This document shows positions 4,506-63,952 of a DNA stretch of 64,000 nucleotides, piece by piece. The translations under genes were made by a program, and so were the position numbers. The stretch comes from Cellulomonas sp. JZ18. GTDB lineage: Bacteria > Actinomycetota > Actinomycetes > Actinomycetales > Cellulomonadaceae. Below the pieces are notes generated by a model. The model had not been told where the DNA came from. It did not search any database and saw only the letters and a program-made list of their open reading frames with translations. The DNA is taken from contig NZ_CP045245.1 of the NCBI RefSeq assembly GCF_009720485.1, positions 1,922,001 to 1,986,000 on the forward strand, read 5' to 3'. Every line of letters begins with the position of its first letter. Position 1 is the first letter of the stretch.

Positions 4506-6650
4506 TCAGGCGGTGCCGGTGCCCGGCCCGGCCTGCGCGGCGGGGTCCGTGAGCAGGTCCTCCGGCATCCGCTCGGGGCCTGCGCCCGCCGGGCGCGGAC
4601 GGTCCTCCGGGTGGGCGCGCACGGCCAGCAGCGCGACGTCGTCCTCGCTGCCCTGCGCGAGGTCGTCCACCAGCCGGTCGCACAGCTCCTCGAGCGGGAG
4701 GGCCCCGAGCTGCTCGGCGTGCGCGCGCAGGCGCTCGAGCCCCACGCCCAGCCGCTCGCCGCGCCGCTCGACCAGGCCGTCGGTGTACAGCACGACCGTC
4801 GACCCGGGGGCGAGCGGCACGACGTGGTCGCGCCGCTCGACGTGCGCACGCAGCCCGAGGAGCAGGTTGCCGGGCCGGCGCAGCAGCTCCGCGCGTCCGT
4901 CCGGGTGCAGCAGCAGGGGAGGCAGGTGCCCGGCGTTCGACCAGCGCAGTCGGCGCAGACCCTCGGCGGCGAGCTCCGGCGTCTGCTCGACCTTCGCGAG
5001 CACCGCGGTGGTGAGCGCGCCGACCGCGAGGTCCCGCATGGCCCAGTCGAGCGCCGACAGGATCCCTGCCGGAGGCTGCACGATCGCGTGCGCACCTCCG
5101 CGCAGCACGTTGCGGATCTGCGCCATCGCGACCGCGGCGCGCAGGTCGTGGCCGGTCACGTCGCCGATGACCAGGCACGTGCTGCCGTCGCGCACGAGGA
5201 ACGCGTCGTACCAGTCCCCGCCGATCTGCGTGGCTGTCGCGGCGGGCAGGTAGCGGGCCGCGAGCTCGAGGTGGTCCGGCTCCGGCAGCGCGGTGAGGAG
5301 GCTGCGCTGCAGCTCCTCGGCGAGGTCGCGGCGGGCGGCGTGCAGGTGCGCGTTGTCGAGCGCGAGGCCGATCTGCGCCATCACCTCGCGCAGGGACCGC
5401 AGCTCCGCCCCGGTGAACTCCCCGCGCCGCTCGCTGCGGCCCAGCGTCAGCAGCCCGCGCACGTGCCCGCGCCCGCGCAGCGGCACGACGACCCGCGCGT
5501 GCGGGGCCAGCCGCGCGAGCGCGTCCTGCGCGGGCCCCGCCTCGACGACCTCGCCGGGCTGCGGCACCCCGGTCGCGATGACCCGGCGGCCGCCCGCGAG
5601 CGCCTGCGCGACCAGGGAGGTGCGGGTGAGCGCGGCGACCCGTGTCTCGCGGTACCGGTCGAGCACGGGCTGCATCGCGGGGTCGGCGTGCAGGGCGGCG
5701 ACGTCGTGCAGGCGCTGCTGCCAGGGGCCGTGCCCCTCGTCGAGAACGCTCGCGATCGCGAAGTCCGCGACGGACGGCACGAGGTGGGGCAGGACCGCCT
5801 CGAGCGCCGCGACCGGGTCGAGCACCTCGACGAGCTCGGACGCCACGGACGCGACGAGCTCGGAGCGCGCCCGTGCCTGCTGCGCCGCGTCGAGCGCCCG
5901 GCGACGCTCCGTGACGTCGGTGAAGTAGGCGGCGACGCCCCCGCGCTCCGGCACGGCGCGCACCTCGAACCACGACTCGAGCGGTGCCGGGTACCACGCG
6001 TCGAACACCGCGGGCACGTGCGTGCGCGCCACCTGGCGGTACTCCTGCTCGAACACCGTCCCCGACACTCCCGGGAAGACCTCCCAGATGACCCGGCCGA
6101 GCAGGTGCTGCCGCGCGACGCCGATGATCCGCTCGGCCTCGGCGTTGACGTGGCCGAAGCGCCAGCGGGCGTCGAGCCAGTAGTACCCGACGGTCATGTC
6201 CTCGAGGATCTGGTGGACCCGCTCCTCGCCGACCCGCAGCTCGGTGACGTCGGTCACGACGCCGACGACCTCCGTCGCGACGCCGTCGGGTCCGGCCACG
6301 GCTCGTCCTCGGGCCACGAGCCAGCGGGTGGTGCCGTCGGGCCGGCGCACGCGCAGCTCGGCCTGGTAGGGGCCGCACGTCGCGACGGCCTCGCGCACCG
6401 CGGCACGGACGCCCGGCAGGTCCTCGGCCTGCACGCGTGCCTCGAGCGCGTCGATCGTGCCGTCGAAGGTCGCCGCGTCGTACCCGAAGACGTCGAGCAG
6501 GGCGTCGTCCCAGTGCAGGGCCCGCGCGCGCAGGTCCCACCGGAACGCCCCGAGGCCGCCGGCGCGCGCCGCGACGTCGAGCAGCGCGAGCCGCTCGGCC
6601 GCGCCGAGCGGTGCGGGCGGGTCGTCCTCGACCCGGACCGGATCCTGCAT
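4506..6650 (-). CDS. PAS-PAS-GAF-SpoIIE (PP2C-type) phosphatase
   Basis: Signal-responsive Ser/Thr phosphatase of 714 residues, typically acting on anti-anti-sigma factors in this family. Order: PAS at about 20-140 (FGYDAATF), PAS at 145-260 (GYYWLDARWRFGHVN), GAF at about 285-440, then the SpoIIE catalytic domain with GGDWYDAF, GDVTGHDL, LYTDGLVERRG and EDDVALLAVR, which supply the metal-binding Asp residues. The ATG at 6650 has GGGGAGGGG upstream. The frame stays open further upstream but without protein-like sequence. It is convergent with the kinase/lipoprotein pair. No partner switch genes (STAS, RsbW) are in the window, so the target is unknown. Confidence 0.9.
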   Translation of the reverse strand: MQDPVRVEDDPPAPLGAAERLALLDVAARAGGLGAFRWDLRARALHWDDALLDVFGYDAATFDGTIDALEARVQAEDLPGVRAAVREAVATCGPYQAELRVRRPDGTTRWLVARGRAVAGPDGVATEVVGVVTDVTELRVGEERVHQILEDMTVGYYWLDARWRFGHVNAEAERIIGVARQHLLGRVIWEVFPGVSGTVFEQEYRQVARTHVPAVFDAWYPAPLESWFEVRAVPERGGVAAYFTDVTERRRALDAAQQARARSELVASVASELVEVLDPVAALEAVLPHLVPSVADFAIASVLDEGHGPWQQRLHDVAALHADPAMQPVLDRYRETRVAALTRTSLVAQALAGGRRVIATGVPQPGEVVEAGPAQDALARLAPHARVVVPLRGRGHVRGLLTLGRSERRGEFTGAELRSLREVMAQIGLALDNAHLHAARRDLAEELQRSLLTALPEPDHLELAARYLPAATATQIGGDWYDAFLVRDGSTCLVIGDVTGHDLRAAVAMAQIRNVLRGGAHAIVQPPAGILSALDWAMRDLAVGALTTAVLAKVEQTPELAAEGLRRLRWSNAGHLPPLLLHPDGRAELLRRPGNLLLGLRAHVERRDHVVPLAPGSTVVLYTDGLVERRGERLGVGLERLRAHAEQLGALPLEELCDRLVDDLAQGSEDDVALLAVRAHPEDRPRPAGAGPERMPEDLLTDPAAQAGPGTGTA

Positions 6651-44751: not shown

Positions 44752-45096
44752 ATGGCCAACAGGTCCCTGCGCGGGATGCGCATCGGGTCCCACAGCATGG
44801 AGACGGAGCAGGGCGTCGACTTCGCCCCGCGTCTCCAGGCGTACTACGACTGTCCCAACGGGCACACCATCATCCTGCCGTTCTCCGTCGAGGCGGACGT
44901 GCCGGTCGTGTGGGAGTGCCGCTGCGGCGCCGAGGCGCTGCTCCGGGACGCCACGAAGCCCGAGGCGAAGGCCGGCAAGCCGCCGCGCACGCACTGGGAC
45001 ATGCTGCTCGAGCGCCGCACGGTGAACGAGCTGCAGGAGCTGCTCGACGAGCGGCTCGACCTGCTCCGGGCTGGGAAGCTGCGCCGCAGCGCCTGA
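44752..45096 (+). CDS. rbpA: RNA polymerase-binding protein RbpA
   Basis: 114-residue actinobacterial transcription factor that binds sigma region 2 and stabilises open complexes. N-terminal RGMRIGSHSMETEQGVDFAP, zinc-type Cys in YDCPNGH and WECRCGAEA, and the sigma-interaction tail THWDMLLERRTVNELQELL are all present. Full length; start ATG 44752. Downstream is a terminator shared with lnt. Confidence 0.96.
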   Translation: MANRSLRGMRIGSHSMETEQGVDFAPRLQAYYDCPNGHTIILPFSVEADVPVVWECRCGAEALLRDATKPEAKAGKPPRTHWDMLLERRTVNELQELLDERLDLLRAGKLRRSA

Positions 45097-45197: not shown

Positions 45198-46763
45198 TCA
45201 GGCCGCGTCCGGCCGGTCCTCGCGGCGGAGGCTGCGTGCACCGGCGGCACCGGCCACGACCACGCAGACCGCGAGGGCGGAGAACACCCACGCCGGCCAC
45301 TCCCCCAACCGCGTCGCCGGGGACAACGACGTGCGCAGCGGCAGCGTCGCGACCATCTGCGCCGCGGTGAACAGGTCCGTGCGCTGCGTCACCGCGCCGT
45401 TGGGCGTGATGACCGCGCTGACCCCGACGGTCGAGATCTGCACGGTCGCGCGGCCGTGCTCGATCGCGCGCAGGCGCGACATGGCGAGCTGCTGCGTGGA
45501 CTCGTCCGTCCACCCGAACGACGCGTTGTTCGTCTGCACGACGAGCACCTCGCCGCCCTCGCGGACCGCCTCGCGCACGAGGCCGTCGTAGGCCACCTCG
45601 AAGCAGATGACGTCGCCGAGGACGACCGTGCGCCCCAGGCGCGCGGACTCCAGCGGCACGACCCCCGGCTCCGAGCCGGCGAGCATGTCCTGCGTCACGA
45701 GGTCGACCGCGGACGAGAAGTGCCGCACGAACGAGCGCATCGGGATGTACTCGGCGAACGGCGCGGGCCGCTGCTTGGAGTACTCCGCCACGACGCCCGT
45801 GCCGGCCTCCCACAGCACGGCGGTGTTCCACCGGCCGCCGGACTCCGGGTACTCGACCGTCCCGACGAGCATCGGCGCCCCGACGTCACTGGCGGCCGCG
45901 TCGATGAGCCCCGCGGCCTCCGCGTCGACCTGCGGGTCGATGTCCGAGCCGTTCTCGGGCCACAGCACCACGTCGAGCTCGCCGGGCGCCACCTGCTCGA
46001 GCAGCGCGCGTGTCCCCGCGACGTGGTTGTCGAGCACCTGACGGCGCTGCCCGAACGCGTCGAGCCGACCAGGCTCGGGGACGTTGCCCTGCACCGCGCC
46101 CACCCGCAGCGTGCCGGACTCGGCGCCCGTCTCGAGCGGGATCGCGAGGGCGCCCACGACGACGGCGGCGACCGCCGCCAGGGCGCCGACGGTGCGGCCG
46201 AGCGCCACCCGCCGCGCCGCGAGCAGCGCACGGGCCAGGAGCACGCCGACGGCGGCGACGGCCGCGGTGAGCAGAGGTGTGCCGCCCAGCCACGTCACGG
46301 CCGCCAGCGGCGAGTCCGCCTGGGAGAACGCGAGCCGGCCCCACGGGAACCCGCCGAAGGGCCACGCGGACCGCAGCTCCTCGACGCCGACCCAGAGCAC
46401 GACGAACACCACGAGCTGCCACCCGCCGCTGCGCCACACCGCGTGCCCGCGGCGGGCCCAGGACCAGGCGGCGCCGAACAGCGCGACGAACCCCGCCTCC
46501 ACGAGGCTCAGGGCAGCCCACGGCACGGCGCCGACGGCCTCGTGCGCCCACAGGATCATCGGCGCGAAGCAGGCCAGCCCCCACACGAGACCGACGAGCG
46601 CGTTCCAGCGTGCGCTGTCGCGCCGCAGGGCGAGGTACAGCAGGGCGACCCCGGCGTAGGCGGCTCCCCACCACCCCGGATCGGGGAACGCCGCCCGGGT
46701 GAGCAGGCCGCCCGCCGCGGCGAGCAGCAGCGTCACCCAGCGGGTGGGAGGCGGGAGGGGCAC
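45198..46763 (-). CDS. lnt: Apolipoprotein N-acyltransferase
   Basis: Membrane enzyme adding the third acyl chain to lipoproteins (521 residues). About seven N-terminal hydrophobic helices precede a nitrilase-type domain with the expected triad: Glu in LWPENGSD, Lys in YSKQRPAPFAEYIP and Cys in VICFEVAYDG. TACCCT lies 6 nt before GTG 46763, so I choose this leaderless start over upstream in-frame starts. In many relatives a polyprenol-phosphate mannosyltransferase gene lies between lnt and rbpA; none is here. Confidence 0.92.
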   Translation of the reverse strand: MPLPPPTRWVTLLLAAAGGLLTRAAFPDPGWWGAAYAGVALLYLALRRDSARWNALVGLVWGLACFAPMILWAHEAVGAVPWAALSLVEAGFVALFGAAWSWARRGHAVWRSGGWQLVVFVVLWVGVEELRSAWPFGGFPWGRLAFSQADSPLAAVTWLGGTPLLTAAVAAVGVLLARALLAARRVALGRTVGALAAVAAVVVGALAIPLETGAESGTLRVGAVQGNVPEPGRLDAFGQRRQVLDNHVAGTRALLEQVAPGELDVVLWPENGSDIDPQVDAEAAGLIDAAASDVGAPMLVGTVEYPESGGRWNTAVLWEAGTGVVAEYSKQRPAPFAEYIPMRSFVRHFSSAVDLVTQDMLAGSEPGVVPLESARLGRTVVLGDVICFEVAYDGLVREAVREGGEVLVVQTNNASFGWTDESTQQLAMSRLRAIEHGRATVQISTVGVSAVITPNGAVTQRTDLFTAAQMVATLPLRTSLSPATRLGEWPAWVFSALAVCVVVAGAAGARSLRREDRPDAA

Positions 46764-46837
46764 CGCGTCAGGGTACGTCAGCCGCCGGGCGCGACCGCCG
46801 GCCGCGCGACGCACGTGCGGTGGCCCGTGTCACGGGC

Positions 46838-47035
46838 GCACCGGGCCGGGGTGTCCCTGCGGGGCCTGCCCCGGCCCGGTGCACCCGACCGACCGGCCCG
46901 CGCGCCCTTCGTACCGGCGAGGACCGGGGTCCTGCCGTTGTCTGTTGAGCGCGCGGGCCCGGCCGGAGCTCGTGCCGAGCGGCACCCGACGAGCAGTCGG
47001 TGGCCCCCCTGTGGTGCCCGCGCCGGCAAGCCACC
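46838..47035 (-). ncRNA. Candidate structured non-coding RNA
   Basis: A 498-bp gap without a convincing gene holds four nested hairpins: 46999-47035 (6-bp closing stem), 46968-46994, a long arm 46895-46959 (11-bp perfect helix, 9x11-nt internal loop, apical hairpin 46915-46937), and a 14-bp perfect hairpin 46838-46882 resembling a terminator. A promoter-like TTGACA (47066-47071) and TAGGTT (47041-47046), spacer 19, point to the minus strand, with a start near 47034. On that strand the internal loops are A-rich (AACAGACAA, TACGAAGG). I do not recognise a known RNA family. Confidence 0.45.
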
Positions 47036-47040
47036 AGCGA

Positions 47041-47071
47041 ACCTACTCCGCGGGTCGCGCAGGGTGTCAAG
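47041..47071 (-). promoter_or_regulatory. Promoter of the candidate RNA gene
   Basis: Consensus TTGACA and TAGGTT with a 19-bp spacer, a little long, placing the start at the foot of the first hairpin. Confidence 0.45.
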
Positions 47072-47261
47072 ACCGCGTCGCAGCAGGTCAGCGGCCTCAG
47101 CCCTGGTCAGGCCCGTCCGATTCGTCGGGTACGCGCGCGCAGCCCCGGCGTGTCGCCGCGCGTGTCGGCCGACACGCGCGGGCGCCGCGGGGCACCGCGG
47201 CGGCGGGCCCGACCCGATCGTGCGCGGATTCACCCGTTCGGCCGCACCGCCGTGCTGGTCG

Positions 47262-48890
47262 TCAGTCCAGCTCGTCGTGCAGCACGACCCCGGCGCGGAC
47301 GGTCCGCACGCACCTGGGCGCGGGTGCGCCGGGCGACAGGTCGGGCAGCAGCGGGGACCCCGCGCGCGCGTCGGCGCTCCACGTGGAGGTCCGCGACGCC
47401 TGCACCACCAGGTGCTCGGCCCGCCACACGGCCAGGTGCGCCGGTGCCCCCACCCGCAGCTCGCCGGCGCCCGTGTGGTCGAGGTGGGCCAGTCGCCACC
47501 CGCCACGGGTGGCGGCCCGGAACGCGGCGCGCACGGACACGCGCTGGTCGGGCTCGTGGTGGTGCGCGGCGGCGCGCACGCCCGCCCACGGGTCGACGGG
47601 CGTCACCGGGGCGTCCGAGCCGAGGGCCAGCGGCACGCCCGCGGCGGCCAGGTCCGCCAGCGGGTTCAGGGCGGCGGCACGTCCGCGACCGAGCCGCGCG
47701 GCGTACATGCCGTCGGGGCCGCCCCACGCGGCGTCGAACGCCGGCTGCACCGAGAGCCGCAGCCCCAGGAGCACGATCTGCGCGAGCGAGGGCGCGTCGA
47801 CGAGCTCCGCGTGCTCCAGCCGGTGCCCGGCGCCCGCCACCGCGGCCATGCCCTCCACGTCCGCCGCGGCACGCAGCCCCAGCAGGACCTCGTCGAGCGC
47901 GCGGTCGCCGATGACGTGGAACGCCGCGTGCGAGCCGGCGCGGGTCACGGCCGTGACGTGGTTCGCCACCTCCTCCGCGGTGAGGTAGAGGCGGCCGCGC
48001 GTGTCCGGCGCGTCGGCGTACGGCTGACGCAGCGCCGCGGTGCGTGAGCCGATCGAGCCGTCGACGTTGAGGTCCCCGCCGATGCCGGTGAGGCCGGGCA
48101 GGTCGGCGAGCAGCGCCCGCGCGTCGTCGACCGTGACGCAGCGCTCGCCGCGGTAGCCGATCACGAGGGGCAGGGCCGACGACGGGTCGGCGGTCAGGGC
48201 GAGCAGCTCGCGCAGACCCGCCCTCGTGTCGATCGACGGGGCCGACTGCTCGTGCACCGCGACGACACCCGCCGCCGCGGCGGCCGTCAGGGCCTCGCGG
48301 TAGAGGGCGGTCCGCTCCTCCGCGTCCACCTCGCGGGCGAGGGCGCGGGCGGCGTGGTGCGCCTCGCGCTCGACGCGCCCGTCCTCGCTCCACCCGGGCA
48401 GGGCACGCAGCCCCGCCGCGTCCGCGAGCGGCGTCGACACGACGGCCGAGTGGACGTCGACCCGCGCCAGGTAGACGGGGATCCCCGGTGCGACCGCGTC
48501 CACCTCCGCGCGCGTCGGCGGCCGGCCCTCCGGCCACGTCCGCTCGTCCCAGCCCGAGCCGAGCAGCGGCCGGCGGTCCCCCCGGGCGGTCGGCGACGGC
48601 GCGCGCGAGCGCGGCGAGCGCGTCGGCCACGCTGCGCACGCCCGCGGCCGCGGACAGGTCCACCCCGCGGGCCGCGAGCGCGGTCTCCAGCAGGTGCACG
48701 TGGGCGTCGACGAACCCGGGGCGACGAGCGCGCCCTCGAGGTCGACGACCTCGTCGACGCTGGCCACCAGGCCGTCGGCGGTGTCGTCGGAGCCCATCCA
48801 CGCGACGGTGCCGTCCTCGACGAGGATGGCCTCCGCGAAGGGGTCGGACGGGGAGTGGACGACGCCGTGGCGGTAGAGGGTCGAGGTCAC
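47262..48890 (-). CDS. Amidohydrolase family protein (YtcJ-like), two compensating frameshifts
   Basis: Metal-dependent hydrolase of about 542 residues. The N terminus ALVAPG and the rest from GSGWDERTWPEG share one frame, but between about 48580 and 48718 the natural sequence (FVDAHVHLLETALAARGVDL) lies in another. A base is missing near CCC/GGGG 48715-48721 and an extra one lies in CCCCCC 48578-48583, so the frame is restored. The metal-binding HxH motif is in the displaced part. Later motifs FHVIGDRAL, HRLEHAELVD and LGSDAPVTPVDPW fit YtcJ-type amidohydrolases. TAGGGT lies 8 nt before GTG 48890. Confidence 0.82.
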   Translation of the reverse strand: MTSTLYRHGVVHSPSDPFAEAILVEDGTVAWMGSDDTADGLVASVDEVVDLEGALVAPGSSTPTCTCWRPRSRPAGWTCPRPRACAAWPTRSPRSRAPSPTARGDRRPLLGSGWDERTWPEGRPPTRAEVDAVAPGIPVYLARVDVHSAVVSTPLADAAGLRALPGWSEDGRVEREAHHAARALAREVDAEERTALYREALTAAAAAGVVAVHEQSAPSIDTRAGLRELLALTADPSSALPLVIGYRGERCVTVDDARALLADLPGLTGIGGDLNVDGSIGSRTAALRQPYADAPDTRGRLYLTAEEVANHVTAVTRAGSHAAFHVIGDRALDEVLLGLRAAADVEGMAAVAGAGHRLEHAELVDAPSLAQIVLLGLRLSVQPAFDAAWGGPDGMYAARLGRGRAAALNPLADLAAAGVPLALGSDAPVTPVDPWAGVRAAAHHHEPDQRVSVRAAFRAATRGGWRLAHLDHTGAGELRVGAPAHLAVWRAEHLVVQASRTSTWSADARAGSPLLPDLSPGAPAPRCVRTVRAGVVLHDELD

Positions 48891-63640: not shown

Positions 63641-63737
63641 CCGTCCCACCTCCGTGCGCGCGGGCGCTCCGGGGTGGACGGGTCGCCGCGGCGCACCGCG
63701 GACCGTCACGGCGCGCACCGGGCGCGCCGCCACGTGT

Positions 63738-63853
63738 CTCCTCCCATCCGGACTGTCACCGTCGGTCCTGGAGTTCCACCAGGTCAACCGCCGGGCCCGA
63801 GGGCCCTGCGGGTCGCGGACTGTCACCGCCGGCTCGGAATTGCACCGACCCCG
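63738..63853 (-). ncRNA. FMN riboswitch (RFN element)
   Basis: On the minus strand the conserved blocks appear in order: GGGGTCGGTGCAATTCCGA, GCCGGCGGTGACAGTCCGCGA, a variable arm, GTGGAACTCC, GACCGACGGTGACAGTCCGG and GATGGGAG (each block quoted in part). It lies 97 nt before ribD and is expected to shut the operon when FMN is abundant, probably by hiding the ribosome site. Confidence 0.97.
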
Positions 63854-63952
63854 GAGCACGTGTGTTGCTGTTCGTACCGGCCAACGATCATGCCACAGCG
63901 GGCATTCCCGCTCGCGCCCGTCCGCGCTCCGGTCGCCGGCGCGCGGACGGCG

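Follow-up and report, generated by a model that had tools for sequence, protein, structure and literature searches.

A predicted structured RNA encoded beside lnt and ppm1 in Cellulomonas and other Actinomycetota

Related RNAs and the locus in Cellulomonas

Among the described RNAs closest to that considered here is Ms1 (MTS2823 of Mycobacterium tuberculosis, scr3559 of Streptomyces coelicolor), which binds the RNA polymerase core, is likewise actinobacterial and, in the texts drawn on here, likewise has a sigma-70-type promoter and a long hairpin with a conserved bubble. Those texts give its neighbours as HAD hydrolase and oxidoreductase genes and its position in S. coelicolor as SCO3558-SCO3559, and report Ms1 candidates in Cellulomonas with other neighbours. 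6S RNA shares the hairpin with an internal loop. The Lnt motif (RF01711), also named for lnt, is entered in a published table for Chlorobi as probably cis-regulatory. The papers drawn on are PMC3765725, PMC4191392, PMC9130861, PMC11077062, PMC11678152, PMC5882110 and PMC2864571.

The candidate RNA lies within a window of 64,000 nucleotides of Cellulomonas sp. JZ18 (NZ_CP045245.1, 1,922,001 to 1,986,000), in a 498-bp gap (46764-47261) flanked by lnt, which starts with GTG at 46763, and an amidohydrolase gene, which stops at 47262, both on the minus strand; a preliminary description of this DNA had put the gap at about 500 bp. Identity with Ms1 was rejected on locus, since the neighbours are the amidohydrolase gene and lnt or ppm1 rather than the HAD hydrolase and oxidoreductase genes given in the sources; the two RNAs are set apart by position, not by sequence. 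Ms1 is further described from Mycobacterium, Nocardia and Rhodococcus, none of which is among the at least 119 matches listed in our scan of named genomes. RNA polymerase pull-downs (RIP-seq) from S. coelicolor name, in the part of the study drawn on here, scr3559 and scr0792, neither of them at this locus (PMC11077062).

Searches against Rfam 15 led us to reject identity with a known family. At gathering score the whole window gave no match except an FMN riboswitch elsewhere (RF00050, 85.7 bits, 63732-63861, minus strand). The interval 46500-47400 at E<=5 gave mir-3622 with 20 bits against a gathering score of 78; 20 class loci at E<=1 gave mir-9456 in one locus, away from the RNA, and 14 phylum loci at E<=1 gave none. 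The 6S families and RF01711 were thus without a match in the window (E<=5 for RF01711) and in the related loci (E<=1 in 34 loci for RF01711). The preliminary description had recognised no known family, and we rate the RNA as a new family within the known kind of structured bacterial RNAs. Searches of the main texts in an open-licence library showed no paper on it; a table of Streptomyces small RNAs may nevertheless list it (e.g., Table S3 of PMC3765725).

Table 1. Features of the lnt–amidohydrolase gap (window coordinates)
Feature	Position	Strand	Basis or remark
Predicted RNA gene	46838..47033	-	Predicted from promoter position and fold (z -4.40); start near 47033; uncertain 3' end (46884 or further on, perhaps 46838)
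Conserved core (stem P1, internal loop, hairpin P2)	46884..46971	-	79 genus loci, covariance models, covariation; fold z -3.98 alone
P1, 5' strand	46947..46966	-	Pairs with 46885-46907
P1, 3' strand	46885..46907	-	Pairs with 46947-46966
Internal loop, 5' strand	46938..46946	-	AACAGACAA in window; AGUAGAMAA in most of class
Internal loop, 3' strand	46908..46914	-	GUACGAA in window; GYMCGAA in class
P2 hairpin	46915..46937	-	Base kept by covariation; sequence and length of tip vary
5' part of predicted RNA, lineage-specific	46972..47033	-	Fold z only -0.71 alone
14-bp perfect stem-loop 3' of core, without U tail	46838..46882	-	46838-46851 pairs with 46869-46882; not conserved in genus
RNA promoter	47040..47070	-	TTGACA (47070-47065), 19 nt, TAGGTT (47045-47040)
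TGACCTGC box	47083..47090	-	Just upstream of -35; exact 8-mer in 38/67 genus upstream regions, control 2/67
CGACACGCCG box	47146..47155	-	Further upstream; GACACGCC in genus upstream regions
lnt promoter and start, leaderless	46761..46775	-	-10 TACCCT (46775-46770), GTG start (46763-46761)

Fold, covariation and internal loop of the core

On either strand, none of 200 dinucleotide shuffles folds as well as the stretch 46838..47071 (z -3.89 on the minus strand, -4.34 on the plus strand). It had been proposed as a candidate structured RNA gene on the minus strand, and that reading is supported by conservation and covariation without an Rfam match; as to extent, the 88-nt core rather than all 234 bases is conserved, the 14-bp stem and the small hairpins are local, and the family reaches far beyond Cellulomonas. 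The 11-bp perfect helix of the preliminary description is present (46947-46957 with 46897-46907). Its internal loop of 9 x 11 becomes 9 x 7 nt in the family consensus, and its two small 5' hairpins are local to this lineage, in a 5' part that is not conserved and folds weakly (Table 1). A covariance model built from the genus (R1) finds the core once in the source genome at E<=10.

An alignment of 66 distinct core sequences from 79 Cellulomonas loci, made with MAFFT and not fitted to structure, gave in RNAalifold a stem of 18 pairs and an inner helix of 4. Here 97.9% of cells pair, two-sided changes occur in 8 of 22 pairs, and compensatory cells number 90, where shuffles average 25.7; as many further pair types were reached by 60 of 500 shuffles. 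Larger alignments, built by covariance models and so biased towards structure, place compensatory changes in 18 of 22 pairs for 85 sequences (263 cells vs 64.4 shuffled), in 20 of 22 for 88 distinct class-wide sequences (386 vs 100.6) and again in 20 of 22 for 96 phylum-wide sequences (502 vs 164.0). In shuffle statistics that ignore relatedness, the compensatory-cell count was reached by 0 of 500 shuffles in all four sets, and the count of covarying pairs alone by 3, 0, 12 and 42 of 500 (genus, 85-sequence, class and phylum sets). When the pairing partner was slid by 1-3 columns, pairing in the 96 phylum-wide sequences fell from 93.9% to 28.7-48.3%. Compensatory changes therefore exceed both the shuffled and the slid controls, as is expected of a structured RNA, and the covariation among relatives that had been named as a test of the candidate is seen in the unfitted genus alignment as well as in the fitted phylum-wide one.

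Among the 1877 pair cells of the 88 distinct class-wide sequences, 198 are G-U and 20 are A-C. Since G-U is tolerated and A-C is not, we assign the RNA to the minus (lnt-sense) strand, which the fold alone cannot give. A coding reading was rejected because, on division by three, core lengths in the genus are spread over every remainder (0 in 24, 1 in 26 and 2 in 16 of 66).

Pairing between the 5' end of the RNA and the stretch before P1 gave at most a weak signal over swapped partners: own and swapped duplexes scored -28.4 and -25.0 in the genus, -26.9 and -25.7 in the order, and -28.2 and -26.1 in the class, with a standard deviation of 5.6-5.9 among the swapped. In 60 Streptomyces sequences this helix is nearly invariant and so says little there. 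By eye, the 5' and pre-stem segments of three loci outside the class (L414, L416 and L417) look complementary (CGUUCCGG / CCGGAACG). Also by eye, many class members carry GCAGCCNGC at the tip of P2, absent from Cellulomonas.

Across the class, the internal loop reads C-AGUA-G-A-M-A-A-C opposite G-G-Y-M-C-GAA-G, with most positions kept in 87-91 of 91 rows; about half of these rows were selected by the pattern AGTAGAMAAC...GGNMCGAAGG, so that this conservation is partly by construction. Class rows found by the model, independently of the pattern, show the same loop letters. AGUA opposite GAA between closing pairs is what we take to be the bulged-G, or sarcin-ricin (loop E), module, which is a module and not an RNA family; the likeness resides in the class consensus C-AGUA-G / C-GAA-G around the loop. 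The window copy, by contrast, has ACA here, the genus Cellulomonas varies at the G and the U, and outside the class the letters are CGAGUAGAGAAC and CCAAAGG (CAAA for GAA). Because of these deviations, the module reading would cover most of the class, not all of it.

Promoters, neighbouring genes and distribution

The TTGACA/TAGGTT promoter of the preliminary description was located with a 19-nt spacer (Table 1), i.e., the candidate has a predicted promoter of its own, as an independent small RNA gene would. The pattern TTGA[CA]-N17-20-TAnnnT occurs upstream in 67/79 genus, 29/54 order and 113/159 class loci, as raw, uncontrolled counts with denominators that are the loci in which the core was located, of 79, 60 and 166 given. 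Further upstream lie two boxes. TGACCTGC or its complement was found in 38/67 genus, 20/29 order and 61/111 class upstream regions (controls 2, 0 and 0), and GACACGCC in 67/67 genus (control 0/67) and 22/29 order regions (control 0); the WhiA site reads GACAC, as in the latter box. As side observations, TGACCTGC is directly repeated in Cellulomonas and in other genera is arranged as a long palindrome. The source genome has 27 copies of TGACCTGCNNNNAYG, three of them in the first 5.6 kb of the chromosome record (2098-2112, 2409-2423 and 5524-5538), vs 7 of the reversed pattern.

That lnt has a separate, leaderless promoter, as had been claimed, agrees with a TAnnnT placed 5-9 nt before 44 of 69 located lnt starts; shifted controls gave 0 in six of seven cases and 3 in the seventh. 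Downstream of the core, the 60 nt following it in the 79 genus loci fold at background (mean z -0.21, 6% below -2, mononucleotide shuffles). The 14-bp perfect, terminator-like stem of the preliminary description thus exists in the window and is not a feature of the family. Hairpins with a U tail follow the RNA in 2/79 genus and 3/54 order loci, in 0/44 of a third set and, among the matches listed, in 10/115 named loci (controls 0, 0, 1 and 1). With post-core folding at background and such hairpins rare, the stem was rejected as a general terminator; clear U-tailed terminators being confined to few loci, read-through into lnt is possible. Long U-tailed hairpins do occur, e.g., in Plantactinospora (14 bp, L285), and one was seen by eye in Salinispora and Micromonospora.

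As tblastn queries for the neighbouring genes we took two Ppm1 sequences and, from the window, Lnt and the amidohydrolase. On the strand of the RNA, Lnt or Ppm1 is found downstream in 78/79 genus, 60/60 order and 19/20 class loci, and in 107/115 named loci among the matches listed, where six of the eight misses have 236 or fewer bases of downstream DNA examined. The amidohydrolase lies upstream in 74/79 genus loci and in 31/60 order loci, with only some 450 upstream bases examined in the latter. In four of the 60 order loci and in three Streptomyces-like loci, the RNA stands before ppm1 and Lnt gives no match in the vicinity; in Streptomyces roseus (L271) the RNA is directly followed by a Ppm1-type reading frame. 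The Ppm1 of S. coelicolor is SCO1423 in the text drawn on here. In L414, L416 and L417, neither lnt nor ppm1 occurs within the examined DNA; in this branch the RNA was seen behind a strong TTGACA promoter with other neighbours. An RbpA gene (PF13397) was observed beside lnt in the window (44752-45096, plus strand), and a second RbpA domain is encoded elsewhere in the source genome (1830924-1831238).

A DNA search matched 81 of 81 Cellulomonas genomes at E<=0.01, the recurrent part of the query being 125-213 (window 46884-46972). Conservation in relatives, looked for alongside covariation, was borne out in that the core was recovered from 79 of these genomes; the other two (G035 and G071) are drafts of 920 and 660 contigs whose weak DNA matches (8.7e-4 and 0.00136) were left out of the 79. 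R1 matched 134/200 genomes (15/25 genera) in the family and 85/396 (35/109 genera) in the order. A second covariance model, R2, matched 83/198 genomes (39/72 genera) in another, overlapping order draw and 146/394 (65/138 genera) in the class, all at E<=0.1, and 26/296 (19/199 genera) in the phylum at E<=0.01. These E-values are approximate, and some weak matches are lost to the strict filter.

Fourteen of the 26 phylum matches fall outside the class (E 3.5e-4 to 0.0081). Thirteen of these share one core sequence type, and the remaining one (L412) matches only model positions 13-74. An Lnt-like match lies downstream in 9 of the 14 and an amidohydrolase match upstream in 6, three loci (L407 and L415 among them) having little flanking DNA. 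Most loci outside the class (L404-L413) have, by eye, a GGGAACA- or GGAACAA-like word some 30 nt past the core, which may be another RNA element.

The pattern scan of named genomes returned at least 119 stretches. Among the matches listed are Streptomyces, Arthrobacter, Nocardioides, Kribbella, Nocardiopsis, Micromonospora, Salinispora, Actinoplanes, Nonomuraea, Streptosporangium, Cellulomonas, Cellulosimicrobium, Oerskovia, Actinotalea and others; Mycobacterium, Nocardia, Rhodococcus and Corynebacterium are not among them, which does not mean that they lack the RNA. Four non-actinobacterial pattern matches (L302, L317, L326 and L368) were taken as chance, as R2 gives no match there. A phage or plasmid origin was rejected: of 4 + 2 viral pattern matches, two gave R2 E-values of 0.54 and 0.7 and the rest none at E<=1, and blastn of the core against plasmids and phages gave none at E<=1e-3.

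In the class draw, 248 of 394 genomes had no R2 match. A third model (R3, from 96 sequences) was run with a looser filter on 36 genomes, 34 of them picked for their earlier lack of a match; it recovered G117 (3.5e-6), G671 (2.4e-5) and G085 (0.0135) as clear or fair matches, matched the source genome, and gave 0.152 for G035. Of 22 genomes without an RNA match, 21 still have an Lnt match, and the best E among the 30 lnt loci of these 21 was 0.12 (L429). As match-less lnt loci stay at E>=0.12, loss or strong divergence appears to be common, also within the family.

Possible roles of the RNA

The alignments establish a predicted core of 88 nt, in which a long stem, a conserved internal loop and a variable hairpin are kept by compensatory changes on the lnt-sense strand. 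Its predicted transcription from a sigma-70-type promoter of its own, under a conserved upstream control region and separate from the leaderless lnt promoter, is supported by the upstream patterns. From these we infer that the RNA works in trans as a component of a ribonucleoprotein, and we lean towards a free-standing structured RNA gene as the explanation of the whole. The stem and hairpin would serve as a scaffold, free to change while pairing is kept, and the internal loop would be the docking site for one conserved protein; a binding site is read from the loop because the scaffold varies while the loop does not. The 5' part, very short to about 190 nt long, would be a lineage-specific addition, and the place beside lnt or ppm1 an inherited neighbourhood rather than a means of controlling them.

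The chief rival, because position and orientation hardly vary, is a cis-acting leader: a second, longer transcript would run from the TTGACA promoter into lnt or ppm1, and the core would set read-through or stability as an attenuator or as an RNase or protein site. The constant placement upstream of these genes fits such control as well as it fits a free-standing gene, visible terminators are rare, and a different motif named for lnt is itself listed, in the table drawn on here, as probably cis-regulatory. Against it, the leaderless lnt promoter lies after the core, so that lnt would offer a leader no start region on which to act; between core and gene the sequence varies, and no alternative fold is conserved there; and the RNA is kept where lnt is not adjacent and in the three loci where neither gene was seen. 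We therefore consider a leader unlikely and favour a free-standing trans-acting RNA, given the leaderless lnt start, the variable pre-lnt stretch, the separate promoter and the persistence beside ppm1 alone or beside neither gene. Counting against the latter, besides the near-constant lnt or ppm1 downstream, are the few U-tailed terminators, the many match-less genomes and the absence of the RNA from the names given in the consulted part of the RNA polymerase pull-down study.

A metabolite riboswitch with the internal loop as ligand pocket would account for a near-invariant loop within covarying helices upstream of a gene; it appears improbable, as there is no recognisable expression platform, the downstream genes differ among lineages and the lnt start is leaderless. 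We give similarly little credence to an RNA polymerase-binding RNA like 6S or Ms1 encoded at another locus. The long hairpin with a conserved bubble and the sigma-70 promoter recall Ms1 as described in the texts drawn on; the reported loci and neighbours of Ms1 in Streptomyces and Cellulomonas, the two RNAs named in the pull-downs and the lack of an Rfam 6S match all speak against it. That the element acts as DNA, i.e., as a protein-binding palindrome or recombination site, agrees with good folding on both strands and is nonetheless hardly credible, since tolerance of G-U and not of A-C is strand-specific and the promoter is conserved upstream on one side.

Returning to the free-standing RNA gene, a bolder version can be offered tentatively, as a possibility we would sooner doubt than accept: a phylum-wide RNA dating from the origin of the Actinomycetota, which some lineages would have lost and whose ribonucleoprotein would work on the central machinery of transcription, translation or envelope biogenesis and form a new functional class beside 6S, Ms1 and tmRNA.

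Few structured RNAs are conserved across a whole phylum, and those that are usually prove to have a central role. Whichever way this one acts, Rfam 15 and annotation dependent on it would miss it. Its occurrence in the manipulable Streptomyces and Micromonospora makes transcript, partner and deletion directly testable. If it acts in cis, lipoprotein and mannosylation genes would be under a control not suspected before; a trans-acting RNA would be a new one for actinobacterial physiology.
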